DNA of 64,000 nucleotides from Klebsiella pneumoniae (GTDB lineage Bacteria; Desulfobacterota; Binatia; UBA12015), in contig CAMBZJ010000007.1 of the NCBI GenBank assembly GCA_945872365.1, positions 62,001 through 126,000 of the forward strand. Direction: 5' to 3'. The stretch's first letter is position 1; every line of letters starts with the position of its first letter. The translations under genes were made by a program, and so were the position numbers. The notes beneath the pieces are model-generated. The model worked only from the letters and a program-made list of their open reading frames with translations. It ran no database searches and had not been told where the DNA came from. Shown here one piece after another: positions 53,890 through 62,908 of this stretch.

Positions 53890-56800
53890 TCAGGGAACCG
53901 GCGGGCAGACCACCGGCTTGGGAGCCGACTTGGCCGAGTCGAAGCGTGCCGGCGTGTCGACCGACGCACTCAGGGCGGGTGCTTTCGCACACATGGCGGG
54001 GTCGAAGCCGACGCGGAGCCGCACCGCGACCGATCCCTGCGGCGCGTTCGCCAGCCCGAGCAGGACGGCGCCCTTGCCCTTGATGACGAGCAGGCCGTTG
54101 CGCAGGTCGATCACGCCGATCGCGCCGGTGCCCTTGAACTTGTAGGTCGGCGCGGTCGCGGTTCCGCCGCGGGTCCATCCCGTGGCGGGCAGGTCGATCA
54201 CCGCCTTGTTGGTCTTTCCTTCGCCGTTGTAGATCGTGATCGACCCCCCGTGAATGGACGGATCGCCCTGGGTGAGCGGAGCGGGTGCGACAACACCACT
54301 GCCGAGGGTTCCCGAGTTCTTGGCCTTGAAGGTGAAGGAACGCCCGGACGGATCGATGGGCGGCAGAGCGTCGTCGCGCAGCGCCATCGAACCCGTGACG
54401 ATCAGGGTCGGTGGAACCGGCGTGGCCGTCGGTACGAGCGTCGCCGTGGGCACGGGCGTCGGTGTTGCCGTGGGCACGGGCGTCGGTGTTGCCGTGGGCA
54501 CGGGCGTCGGTACGAGCGTCGCCGTGGGCACGGGCGTCGGTGTGGCCGTCGGCACGGGCGTCGGCGTGGCCGTCGGCACGGGCGTCGGTGTCGCCGTCGG
54601 CACGGGCGTCGGCGTGGCCGTGGCTAGGGGCGGCGTCGGTGTCGCCGTCGGCACGGGCGTCGGAGTGGGAGTGGGAGTGGGAGCCAGCGTAGGCGTCGGC
54701 GTTGCCGTGGGGACCGGCGTGGGAGTGGGCGTCGGTGTCGGTACCGGTGTGGGCGACGCGGCCGGATTCGCTCCCGCATCGAGTTCGTCGCGGTCGAACA
54801 CGCCGTCCGAGTCGCGGTCGACGCCGGCGCGCGGACCAGAGCCGGGCGGCATCGCCGTGTACGTCAGCTCCTGGCCTGTCGTCGCCGCGAGCGCCCGCAC
54901 CTGGGCTTCGGTGCGGACATCCGAGGCCCGGTCCATCTGGAAGCTTCCGTTCGAGAGCCGGTAGCCGCCACGCTCGACGCCGCTGACGACTCCCTTCACG
55001 ATCACATCGCACTCGCCCGCGGCCGCGCGCGCGAGCAGCAGGTCGACGCGGGCCCCCACGGTCGCCGAGTTCGTCGGGCTGACGGTGATCTGCTGGCCGA
55101 CGACCGGTGCGACGTTCGTGTCGAAGGCGAATACGAAGTCCTGCAGCTGGTTCCGCTGGGTGCTCGTCAGGCTGAAGACGGGCGCCTGCAGGAAGCGGAT
55201 CAGCGTCGAGATGCTTCCGTCGTGGGAGAAGCCGAAGCCGCGGACCTGCGCGCCCTGGTTGGCATCGACCAGGCCCGAAGCGGGCCCCACCATCCCGAAC
55301 ATGCCCACCTTGGTGTAGGCGTTGCGCAGGTGCGCGATCTTGAATTCCTGGGTCTCGCCCTCGAAGGAGGACTTGCCGTTCGCTCCGAAATAGAGCTTCG
55401 TGGGGTCGAGTTCATGGCAGGCGTTGCAGGTGATTCCGACGCCCGAGCCCAGGCCGCCGCCGTCGGCGAGCGTGTTGAAGTAGACGGTGCGGCCGTTGTT
55501 CTGCGAGGTGGTGAGTGAGTTGTCGAGGTTGCGGATCGGGTTCGGCGGGTAGTCCACCGTGAGGACGAAGTCGGTGTAGGCCTGCATCTGCGCGTCGGTC
55601 AGCGTGCTCTTGCGGCCGAGAAGGCTCGTGAATGCGCCGTTGAACTGCTTGAACGCGAGGTCTTCGTCCTCGGGTGCGGAGAAGCCGCCGTTGCGATCCC
55701 CGCGCCAGTGCATCGGACCGGCACCCACCATGCCGCGCAGGGACTGGGTGGTCATCGGGCCCTTGAGCGGGTGGAACTGGATCGGGCTCGTAAAGGGGGG
55801 GATCTCGAAGTCGCCCGGATTGAGTTCGATCTGGCCCTCGGGGTTGCCGAGGTCCCAGCCGAGGCTGTCGAGGTCGCCGAATATGTGACAACTCGAGCAG
55901 GACGCTTCGCCGTTGCTCGAACTCACCACCGCATCGTACAGGAACGGCCGGCCGGCGAGGACCTTCGCGGGTTCGGGATTATGGAGCGCGACCTTCTCCT
56001 GCTCGACGAAAGTCGTGAGGTTGACGACCGAGATCGAGTCGTCGAGCCGATTCATGACGTAGAGTCGCAGGCGAGACTCGTCGAGGGCCATGCCGGTCGG
56101 CCCCTTCCCGGAGAGCGCCAGGCGGTCCGACGCCGCGGGCACGAAGGTGTCGTTCTCGATCTGCGACGTGGAGAAGACGCCGATCGAGTTACTGCCGAAA
56201 CCCGCGACGTAGAGCGTCGTTCCGTCGGAGGAGACGGCCATGCCGACGGGCATGGCGAGACTCTTTTCACTGGTCCCTTCGGGCGCCGGTCGCACCGAGT
56301 AGTCGATGTGCTTGTTCAGGCGGCGGGGCAACACGCTCGTTCCGGAGAGGACCGTGATGCGCGCCTCGTGGAGGTGGCCCTGTACGGTGGTCGCGGTCAC
56401 GCCGTCCCAGTACTTCGTGCCGGAGCCCTCGAAGCGGACCTCGTTGTGGGCCTCGGTGTTGGTGACGTAGACCTTCCCGCTCACCGGGTTCACAGCCATA
56501 TTGAAGAGGATCGTACCGACATGGGCGTACTGGGAGGTGGCGACCTCGGCGGGCGTCGACGCCGTGGCGTTGATCGTGAACACGTCGAGATCGGGCAGGG
56601 TGAAGCGAACCGCGTTGCTCCAGTTTCGGCCGAGTCCGTCCTCCCACTTCCCGGACGCCGTGTTGAAGCGGACGATGAGGCTCGTTTCGGGGCCACCTGC
56701 GCCGAAGGATCCGTCGTCGATCGAGTTCGGGGCGGGCAGCCCGCCCGGCACCGAAACACCCGTGAAGGGCGTACAGCCGGAGGCCGAAGCGCCGCCGTCG

Positions 56801-57519
56801 CAGACCGCGTTCTCCGGCACGGCGGTCGTCTGGTTGCCCGAGTGGAAGATCGCCGCGTAGACGGTGCTGCCGTCGGCACTCTTCGCGAGTGCCCGAGGCG
56901 TGTCGGCGAAGAGGAAGATGTTCGTCAGCGGGCGGACCACCAGCGTGGTGCCGAGATTCGACGCGTCGTAGACCTGGACCATCGCGCGAGGGGTCCCGGC
57001 CGTGCCGCCGCTGAAGGCGACCGCCACTCCGGCCGAATCGACGCAGTTCTGCCCACGTCGCGCGGTCGTGACGAAGGCGCGGTTGCCGCCGGTGCCGGCG
57101 AAGACGATGTCGCGCGGCTCATCGCAGGTGAGGATCGTCCGGGTGACGTGCGGCGGGTTCGACGAGACGTCGACGATGCTGATCGAGTCGGACAGGTGGT
57201 TCACCACCCAGACCTCGGACGCATTGCGCGTGGCGACCGAAACCGGGTCGAGGCCGACCGGGACCGAGGCAGATCGGGTCAGCGATCCGCCGGTCCCCAC
57301 GTCGAAGATCTCGAGGCGGCCGTCGGGGGTATTGACCGCGAACAACTTCGTCCCGTCGGGCGAGAGCGCGATCGGACGGACGTGGCCGGTCGTCTCGAAG
57401 TTGGTGTAGCTTTCGGCGGCACGGACGGGACGGTCGGTCGAAACCAGGGCGACCACGGCGACAAGCATGACCACGGCCCGGCGGAGCAGGCGAATTCGGG
57501 ATGATCTTGGTGTCAGCAT
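53890..57519 (-). CDS. Secreted beta-propeller / di-heme cytochrome with Pro-Thr linker
   Basis: A 1209-aa exported protein. It has a signal peptide ([21 protein letters not shown]), then a propeller of YVTN-like blades to about 500 ([40 protein letters not shown]). A cytochrome domain has heme motifs CSSCH (541-545) and CNACH (698-702), 157 residues apart, as in di-heme cytochrome c peroxidase/MauG proteins. A calcium-type [16 protein letters not shown] follows, then a Pro/Thr linker (about 924-1037) and a C-terminal beta-rich domain (about 1038-1209). GAGAGG precedes ATG 57519. Likely a periplasmic or surface electron-transfer or peroxidase protein; substrate unknown. Confidence 0.82.
54409..54751 (-). 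repeat. Tandem repeat coding for the Pro-Thr linker
   Basis: Imperfect direct repeats of roughly 18 and 24 bases, coding for variations of TPTPVPTA over about 114 residues. The repeats are in frame within the cytochrome gene. Repeat number is likely to vary between strains by slippage or recombination. Confidence 0.85.
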
Positions 57520-57706
57520 GGAACCTCTCTCGCCCCCGGCTCCCCTCGCGGATGCCGTTTTAGGACAATTCCCTACTAGCCCCAAGGCGGCGGTCCAGAC
57601 AAGCCGCGATCATCGCGGCTCGGGCAGCCACTTCGCGGGTTAGGGGGCGAACCAACCCGAGGCGAGCCTTGAGAGGCCAGCCGGGGTCGATCCCGGTTCC
57701 CCCGAT

Positions 57707-61122: not shown

Positions 61123-61270
61123 CGGGCTGGGGTGGTGCGCGGCCACGCGGGGCTGCACGTCGGGCCGATCATAGGGTTTCCCGACCCACGGCGACAGCGA
61201 TGTGGGCAACCGTTGGCCCTGGCGTCTGTTTCAGTCGATACGAGACGAAGCCGAAATGGAGGAAGCCGAC

Positions 61271-61861
61271 ATGAAGCCGCCCAGCACACGTCCCGGGGTA
61301 CGCCGGCTTGCTGCGGGTTGGAGGCTGCGCCGGGTCGCCGGTTTTCTAGCCGTCTTCGCCGGAATCCAGAGCGGCGGCATCCCGGTCTTCGCGGACGAGT
61401 CCTGCCGTCCGAACGTCTTCGGCGGCGAGGACTGTCGAGCCTCGGACGGACGCAGCACCTCGACGTCGCGTCCGAACGTCTTCGGTGGTCGCGACACGAC
61501 ATTTTCCGACGGCACCCGCGCAACGTCGCGCCCAAACGTCTTCGGCGGCGAGGACATCACGGGGCCACACGGCCGCGTGGACAGTCGCCCCAACGTCTTC
61601 GGGGGCCAGGACTATCGGCTGCCCGACGGCAAGCAGGTGACGTCGCGTCCGAACGTCTTCGGAGGCCAGGACTATCGGCTGCCCGACGGCAAGCAGGTGA
61701 CGTCGCGTCCGAACGTCTTCGGAGGCCGCGACTACCGGGGGCCCGACGGCAAGCAGGTGACCTCGCGTCCGAACGTCTTCGGAGGCCGCGACTACCGGGG
61801 GCCCGACGGAAAGACCGTCACGTGCCGTCCGAACGTCTTCGGCGGGCAGGATTGCCGCTGA
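61271..61861 (+). CDS. Secreted protein of eight RPNVFGG repeats
   Basis: A 196-aa protein of unknown family. A signal (RVAGFLAVFAGIQSGGIPVFA) is cut before DES. The whole mature part is eight repeats of about 20 residues, each starting (C/S)RPNVFGG(E/R/Q)D and ending around DG-x4-T. Only the first repeat (CRPNVFGGEDCR) and last repeat (CRPNVFGGQDCR) contain cysteines, two each; the inner six have Ser and a neutral residue. Repeats 4 and 5 are identical, and 6 and 7 nearly so. It looks like a capped beta-solenoid. GGAGG eight bases before ATG 61271 fixed the start. It converges with the 319-aa gene. Confidence 0.75.
   Translation: MKPPSTRPGVRRLAAGWRLRRVAGFLAVFAGIQSGGIPVFADESCRPNVFGGEDCRASDGRSTSTSRPNVFGGRDTTFSDGTRATSRPNVFGGEDITGPHGRVDSRPNVFGGQDYRLPDGKQVTSRPNVFGGQDYRLPDGKQVTSRPNVFGGRDYRGPDGKQVTSRPNVFGGRDYRGPDGKTVTCRPNVFGGQDCR
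61403..61858 (+). repeat. 60-base coding tandem repeats
   Basis: Eight in-frame units of about 57-63 bases, each centred on CCGAACGTCTTCGG. Units 4 and 5 (about 61585-61700) are identical or nearly identical at DNA level, and units 6 and 7 nearly so, which suggests recent duplication. The array is entirely within the preceding feature. Confidence 0.85.
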
Positions 61862-61948
61862 GCGTCGCCGAGCGCGACGGCGCCGGCCAGGCACGTCCGC
61901 GGCCACGGAGGGTTGCGCGCCGAGGCGCGCCGCACCGAAGGCCGGTCG

Positions 61949-62908
61949 CTACTTCTTGTTCTTGCGACCGCCCTTCTTGTCCTTCCTCTTCCCCGCCTTC
62001 GCCTTCTTCGCGGGCCGCTCCCGCTCCGCCGCTGCGGATGCGGACTTCGACTTTGCTCGAGACTCGACGACGTCCGAAACGGAACCCCGCGCCGGTTTCT
62101 TCGGAGCGGCTTTCGCGACAGCACTCAGCTTCCCCGGCTTCGGGGTGTTCGCCGGCCTGGTGCCCCGGGCCGTTGCCGAGGGTTCCCCCACACTCGCCGT
62201 GCTCGGCGCGATCCGCGCGCCGAGCGCGCGTCCCGCGGCCTTGGCTGCGGCGAGGCGTCCCGGTGCGGTGATCGAGGCGACCGAAGGGCGGCGCAGAGCG
62301 GCCGCGGCATCGAGCGTGTCGCGCGCGGCGCCCAGCGCGGCGGCGATCCGCTCACGGGTACCCTCGCGCGGCGGAAGTTGGATGCCGAGTGAGGCCGCCA
62401 TGTTCACTGCTTCGCGGCTCGGCGAATTCGTCCCTGGTTCGTCGTCGTCGGCGTCAGCTTCCGCCTCGCGGCTCGAGTCAGCTGCGGCTTCGCCCGGGGA
62501 AAATTCGCACGCGGCGGCGGATTCCTCGGCGGAAGTCGCTTCGGCTTCAGAGGTCTCCCCGGGTGCGCTCGCAGTGACCGCCTCGGTGCCGGGTGTGCGC
62601 GGCGTCTCCGGTCCGGTCGCCGAATCGTCGAGAGTCGGCTTTGGAGCCGACCTTTCGTCGACGGCTACCGTCCGCCCGGACTCGTCGTCCCGGTCGTCCT
62701 CGACAGCGTCGTCCTCCGGCTCGAGGTCGGCCTCCGCCGCGTGACGCCGCGCCTCCGCCCACGGGTCGGGGTGTGCCACCTCTTGCGGCTCGGAGTCGGC
62801 GGCATCGAGCAGGCCCGCAACCTCCTCGACGACGTCCGCCGCGCCGCGCAGAACGCTGGCGGCGATCCGTCCTCCCCAGGCGAAACAGCCCATGATCACC
62901 GACGTCAT
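61949..62908 (-). CDS. Low-complexity acidic-to-basic protein of unknown function
   Basis: A 319-aa protein without a recognised domain. It begins with a hydrophobic/amphipathic segment (GCFAWGGRIAASVLRGAADVVEEVAGLLDA). Then comes a long acidic, Asp/Glu/Ala-rich stretch (40-165), and a short helical part (NMAASLGIQLPPREGTRERIAAALGAARDTLDAAAAL). The C-terminal 70 residues are Lys/Ala/Pro-rich (PKKPARG, KKAKAGKRKDKKGGRKNKK). It is reminiscent of histone-H1-like tails or granule/phasin-associated proteins, but unproven. GGAGG six bases before ATG 62908 supports a real gene. It converges with the RPNVFGG gene. Confidence 0.6.
   Translation of the reverse strand: MTSVIMGCFAWGGRIAASVLRGAADVVEEVAGLLDAADSEPQEVAHPDPWAEARRHAAEADLEPEDDAVEDDRDDESGRTVAVDERSAPKPTLDDSATGPETPRTPGTEAVTASAPGETSEAEATSAEESAAACEFSPGEAAADSSREAEADADDDEPGTNSPSREAVNMAASLGIQLPPREGTRERIAAALGAARDTLDAAAALRRPSVASITAPGRLAAAKAAGRALGARIAPSTASVGEPSATARGTRPANTPKPGKLSAVAKAAPKKPARGSVSDVVESRAKSKSASAAAERERPAKKAKAGKRKDKKGGRKNKK

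Follow-up and report, generated by a model that had tools for sequence, protein, structure and literature searches.

In the β-flowers, hairpin petals form a shallow symmetric barrel whose symmetry is four-, five- or six-fold and whose strands number 8, 10 or 12 (Durairaj et al., PMC10584680). They are described as having Phe at the loop tips, a hydrophobic channel and a semiconserved [DNEQ]XXG tip motif, and have been likened to 1ZXU; many of them, not all, enclose a C-terminal hydrophobic helix (PMC10584680). The Pfam families Bflower (PF21784), Bflower_2 (PF21785) and Bflower_3 (PF21786) of clan CL0395 stem from that work, and the Encyclopedia of Domains places β-flowers among its high-symmetry domains (PMC7618865). 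Outer-membrane β-barrels are closed antiparallel rings whose size is set by the number of amplified β-hairpins (PMC6193526, PMC6340704).

The window, which is the whole stretch of 64,000 nucleotides that was analysed, carries a gene whose mature product consists of eight RPNVFGG units and nothing else, as the original prediction had it and as the reading of the ORF and its repeats bears out; successive spacings are 21, 20, 19, 20, 20, 20 and 20 aa. The sole cysteines of the protein are C45/C55 in unit 1 and C185/C195 in unit 8, also as foretold. Residues 1–41 read by eye as a Sec-type signal peptide, and this region of the window protein, likewise read by eye, shows no lipobox. Relatives described below have the same signal-peptide layout, with an AxA site 2–3 residues ahead of the first Cys. 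The features of the gene are:

61258..61265, plus strand: Shine-Dalgarno-like GGAGGAAG, 5 nt 5′ of the ATG, read directly
61271..61861, plus strand: CDS of the repeat protein, 196 aa, ATG start, TGA stop (stop included)
61271..61393, plus strand: putative signal peptide, aa 1–41, with Arg-rich n-region and hydrophobic core, ending in VFA and followed by DE (by eye)
61403..61405, plus strand: Cys45 codon, position −5 from the loop centre, unit 1 petal
61406..61468, plus strand: unit 1, RPNVFGGEDCRASDGRSTSTS, Cys petal
61433..61435, plus strand: Cys55 codon, position +5, facing Cys45 in the modelled hairpin
61469..61528, plus strand: unit 2
61529..61585, plus strand: unit 3, 19 aa
61586..61645, plus strand: unit 4
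61604..61727, plus strand: trace of tandem duplication, 64-nt exact run at period 60 (61604–61667 vs 61664–61727), straddling units 4 and 5
61646..61705, plus strand: unit 5, same protein as unit 4
61703..61809, plus strand: trace of tandem duplication, 47-nt exact run at period 60 (61703–61749 vs 61763–61809), units 6 and 7
61706..61765, plus strand: unit 6
61766..61825, plus strand: unit 7, DNA 52/60 against unit 6
61823..61825, plus strand: Cys185 codon, position −5, last petal
61826..61858, plus strand: unit 8, RPNVFGGQDCR, C-terminal Cys petal
61853..61855, plus strand: Cys195 codon, position +5, last petal

Tandem Repeats Finder scores the array at 374 for period 60 and 396 for period 120. 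The 64-nt and 47-nt exact runs are marks of recent tandem duplication within the 3′ half of the array, and uphold the earlier claim that the array is changing. Units 4 and 5 had been called identical at the DNA level; they are identical as protein (20/20), and their DNA agrees at 57 of 60 positions, the three differences being synonymous. Counted from RPNVFGG, unit 8 has only 11 residues, and it becomes a complete hairpin once units are centred on NVFGG. Among the older units the motif codons show synonymous variation, and comparison with the same-genus relative L013 gives dN 0.024 against dS 0.79 (NG86; five aligned unit cores, 55 codons, a small sample), which indicates purifying selection on the unit; for both reasons the array lies far beyond chance.

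The gene is single-copy in its own genome, a second, minus-strand row in the genome search being its own antisense. On that strand an open frame of 186 aa with repeats of its own (61346–61906) is the source of false antisense matches in searches; the simplest explanation is that the 60-bp period keeps this reverse frame free of stops, and antisense matches of the repeat protein to its own locus were accordingly discounted. The next gene (61949–62908, minus strand) codes for a protein rich in Ala and Glu whose C-terminus is strongly enriched in Lys (KKAKAGKRKDKKGGRKNKK) and which has no match in a Pfam search. Farther off (53890–57585, minus strand) lies a gene for a large secreted protein with a Lactonase-type β-propeller match and the haem motifs CSSCH and CNACH; its long linker (12 protein letters not shown) corresponds to a tandem repeat at 54427–54753. 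All-against-all comparison of neighbours at 25 loci found no operon or partner gene common to different lineages, apart from weak matches of 25–37% among a few large neighbour proteins. Proteins of about 36–37% mutual identity adjoin the Planctomycetes repeat genes (L018:2581–3924, L019:1–2679, L023:1864–3615); this likeness may reflect a common large family instead of synteny.

A profile of 126 family units, numbered from the loop centre (Phe = 0), has N(−2), G(+1) and G(+2) almost invariant, [VIL](−1) nearly so, and a strong preference for R(−4) and D(+4). Positions −7, −5, −3, −1, +5 and +7 are held by apolar or small residues, and −8, −6, −4, −2, +4 and +6 by polar ones, an alternation from which the unit is read as an amphipathic β-hairpin. 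The [DNEQ]xxG tip motif of the β-flowers appears as N-V-F-G in all eight window units, and across the family the N is found in 124/126 units and the G in 120/126. Phe stands at the petal tip in 8/8 window units and 98 of the 126 family units, with S, K or R in some relatives. In the enterobacterial versions the inner face is Ser/Thr-rich, so a hydrophobic lumen is not universal.

Relatives were sought in public genomes and viral contigs. The distribution is patchy, with the gene in 4 of 14 genomes of its own family and 2 of 395 sampled from its own phylum (the window's genome included). Same-class relatives are L013, L014, L005 and L015, the last from a MAG titled Polyangiaceae UTPRO1 that was put in the window's class (matching coordinates in G050). 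Others come from a Gemmatimonadetes MAG (L016), Enterobacter (L017), Planctomycetes (L018–L022), a MAG titled Kuenenia (L023), viral contigs (L025–L033) and a conjugative plasmid of Pseudomonas nitroreducens (L003), where the relative is annotated ‘hypothetical protein’. Within the family of the Enterobacter genome, 11 of 295 sampled genomes match; E. coli genomes gave no DNA match to the enterobacterial form. The neighbours in the ‘viral’ contig L026 are 99–100% identical to those of a chromosomal locus in G558, so this contig need not be a virus, and viral scans with other queries returned only loci already found. Weak plasmid and phage matches were to a Hymenobacter tail fibre domain and a Streptomyces kinase (E 0.07–0.2) and to Bacteriophage sp. 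(E 0.01). Two degenerate enterobacterial relatives, L084 (6644–7129, minus strand) and L085 (6653–7096, minus strand), keep a recognisable first Cys petal (CQPNGLGGTFC and CQPNGIGGSFC), beyond which their sequence has drifted.

Exactly six units were found in 18 of the 22 relatives counted (L013, L005, L014, L015, L016, L017, L025, L026, L065, L066, L067, L068, L069, L003, L018, L019, L059 and L044), several of these being close kin, so that 18 is no tally of independent events. Three members of the Planctomycetes group have seven units, mostly at 16-aa spacings (L020, L021, L023), and one has four (L022). Where the regular expression had overlooked an N-[IVL]-x-G-G or picked up a false one (L005, L068, L003, L019, L020, L023, L059), the count was corrected on reading the protein, and the two-unit viral contigs (L027–L033) and broken or very degenerate copies (L070–L073) stand outside the 22. 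Six petals (12 strands) is thus the family standard, and the window copy has eight. The differing counts expected among relatives do exist; the proposed solenoid with a length set by unit number is not supported by the six-unit norm. In L027–L033 the protein is a two-unit mini version following a signal peptide (SRPNIFGGQRYY...YSRPNIYGGQNYN), which could in principle form a six-petal ring as a trimer. L044 (803–1174), from the same phylum, has six degenerate units (PNVFGGMDHHDPSGQISYST), no signal peptide and no Cys, so a cytoplasmic form of the repeat protein may exist.

By sequence, the protein falls into no known family: searches of Pfam, NCBIfam, PHROGs and PDB sequences gave no credible match, and a literature search for NVFGG/NIFGG found nothing relevant. 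The Pfam match to CSN7_HB_subdom (E 3.9e-6, above cut-off) was rejected, as no single stretch passes and the score sums a 10-residue match in the repeat; PHROG matches were rejected as summed short matches of the same kind. To this extent the original remark that no such family is known holds; the predicted fold, though, has already been described (PMC10584680). Like the β-flowers, the protein is small, bacterial and of a kind often envelope-associated, and it shares with them the tip motif (here NVFG) and the tip Phe, to which the six-unit form would add the predicted shallow hairpin-petal barrel and a six-fold likeness to 1ZXU. It differs from the β-flower Pfam families in its near-perfect sequence repeats and terminal Cys-pair petals, the window copy also lacking a lipoprotein box, and from the four to six petals of the described β-flowers (PMC10584680) in the eight of the window copy. 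Genome searches with each of the models PF21784, PF21785 and PF21786 gave no match at the repeat gene, nor did hmmscan of the window protein, and neither structural model has a C-terminal helix, the window protein ending at unit 8 (QDCR-stop). Because these models do not detect the gene and the helix is missing, we regard the protein as a separate, new sequence family of predicted β-flower architecture, not a member of PF21784/5/6.

The structural models were made with AlphaFold2. The mature window protein (14 sequences) was predicted with 16 short strands at mean pLDDT 84.8 and pTM 0.62, and the six-unit relative L014 (10 sequences) with 12 short strands at pLDDT 93.6 and pTM 0.75; predicted strands are 3–7 residues long in both. 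At the head of the VIA-align ranking for L014 stands 1zxu, a 12-strand Tubby-like barrel (Z 8.8, rmsd 3.2 Å, 107/114 residues, 10% identity over the aligned part), followed by the designed protein 9lx4 (Z 8.4, rmsd 3.7 Å, 113/114) and then by a row at Z 5.5. The L014 model is therefore ring-like over its whole length, and a whole-length fit to a 12-strand barrel speaks for a ring, as it is not expected of an open sheet. On these superpositions six-unit members are predicted, with good probability, to close into a ring of 12 strands. The best-fitting barrel, 1zxu (At5g01750), is of the Tubby C-terminal/LURP-one-related type, with which only the barrel shape is shared. Tubby-like/LOR barrels are built around a hydrophobic central helix, and their strands are longer (PMC10584680). 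The L014 model has no helix; the window protein has no Pfam match to this family, and no function can be transferred from it.

For the 16-strand window model the picture is more evenly balanced. Its superpositions are led by 8cp6 (Z 7.2, rmsd 10.6 Å) and the porin-like 4ghb (Z 7.2, rmsd 3.8 Å, 145/155 residues), with teneurin and Rhs shells ranked after these at about 10–11 Å, and Z values of 7–8 can be background. On balance they favour a larger ring that is closed or almost so; closure of the eight-unit copy, inferred from them, is to us an even call. Strand limits from DSSP suggest a register shift of about 2 residues per unit, i.e. a shear equal to the strand number, which would give a tilt near 37 degrees for 12 and 16 strands alike and radii of about 10.6 and 14.1 Å; as the tilt is equal, petals could be added without change of local geometry. 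The protein would resemble outer-membrane barrels in having its size given by the number of amplified hairpins and, as predicted for the six-unit form, in closing into an antiparallel ring. Membership of that class was rejected, since strands of 3–7 residues are too short to cross a membrane and there is no sign of insertion or homology.

The solenoid of the original prediction corresponds to an open array of β-hairpins, a single-layer sheet or spiral of the kind seen in Rhs/YD shells, OspA and the CPAP G-box, its ends closed by disulfides, its length free and its role that of a surface or spacer protein. Most Foldseek matches of the eight-unit model are indeed hairpin sheets that are open or that spiral (Rhs, teneurin, CPAP, OspA), with E down to 4.6e-4 for the Rhs/teneurin YD shells, which share with it a long antiparallel meander, short hairpins and DG-type turns; unit number does vary as well, from eight in the window through seven (three cases) and four (one case) to two in some viral contigs. 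But six units recur across several phyla, and the better-determined L014 model fits closed 12-strand barrels and superposes poorly on Rhs shells (rmsd mostly 5.6–10 Å). Those shells, moreover, wind in large spirals that enclose a toxin or cargo; the 155 residues of the repeat protein are far too few for one, and no RHS-repeat Pfam signature is found in the window protein or its relatives. We consider an open array unlikely, if still a serious competitor. Units of 20 aa that follow head to tail, are nearly identical and each contain a GG would also suit a multi-copy precursor cut into identical short peptides after export; we reject this as very improbable, since the conserved positions alternate polar and apolar like paired strands, beyond any peptide core, most relatives have six units, the Cys pairs are terminal, and no protease or export partner is conserved nearby.

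In another reading the four cysteines could bind a metal (e.g. Zn, Cu or Fe-S) at the junction of the first and last petals in the interior of the barrel. If the ring is closed and its register is as modelled, all four would come together on the inner wall beside the seam. However, only the N-terminal pair is retained in the enterobacterial and Pseudomonas relatives, and no pair is conserved in the Planctomycetes; relatives of the same class, and the Gemmatimonadetes protein too, have one at either end. The paired residues, at −5/+5, lie on the apolar face directly opposed across one hairpin by the strand limits of both models, as in a hairpin disulfide, and are symmetric about the loop centre (residues 4/14 and 144/154 of the window model; 3/13 and 103/113 of the L014 model). 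The protein is exported, and the window's genome and all four relatives tested encode a VKOR homologue that scores above the curated cut-off. VKOR is a component of periplasmic disulfide formation. We therefore hold a metal site to be improbable, and each pair to be a probable cross-strand disulfide within one hairpin, stapling the first and last petals. Of the two end closures first proposed, disulfide or metal, the models favour the former. That the staples stand in exactly these two petals would make sense because the two would be neighbours in a closed ring.

The reading we prefer, given roughly an even chance as a whole, is that of a secreted β-flower-type petal barrel with eight petals, a disulfide-stapled seam and a partly hydrophobic lumen. 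The protein would be periplasmic or released. Each petal would run from a strand -(T)(S/C)RPN- through a five-residue loop N-V-F-G-G into a strand -xD(Y/T/C)x-, followed by a second turn close to (P/S)DG, and the petals would close into a shallow barrel of β-flower architecture, the window copy having grown from six to eight petals (16 strands) by two 60-bp tandem duplications. One strand face, probably the inward one (V/W at −7, S/C at −5, P/A at −3, V/I at −1, Y/T/C at +5, Y/L at +7), would give a partly hydrophobic lumen; the opposite face would carry the conserved cross-strand Arg(−4)/Asp(+4) pair, and the loop tips, with Phe at 0, would ring one rim. The −5/+5 disulfides would staple closure from both sides of a non-covalent seam. 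Our leading guess at function, though a doubtful one, is that a hydrophobic or amphipathic ligand (a lipid or envelope component, for example) is bound or sensed outside the cytoplasm by the open lumen and Phe rim, the protein working by itself and not as part of an operon; the literature searched mentions no member, and functional evidence turned up for none. A bolder version, to which we give only tentative credence, is that of a 16-strand, eight-petal β-flower, larger than those of PMC10584680, arisen by very recent single-petal duplication, its disulfides locking the seam petals and its petal number changing now and settable by adding or removing 60-bp units.

Closed β-barrels, for example those of the outer membrane, are thought to stem from amplification of a single hairpin, and most present-day ones have lost the sequence trace of it. 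Here the hairpins are still nearly identical and petal number varies among relatives (six as the norm, eight in the window, seven or four in some Planctomycetes), which makes the rule that petal number sets barrel size directly testable on one small soluble protein. The β-flower architecture, described from predicted models, would also gain a previously unrecognised family, with members in Enterobacteriaceae, Pseudomonas and several uncultured phyla.
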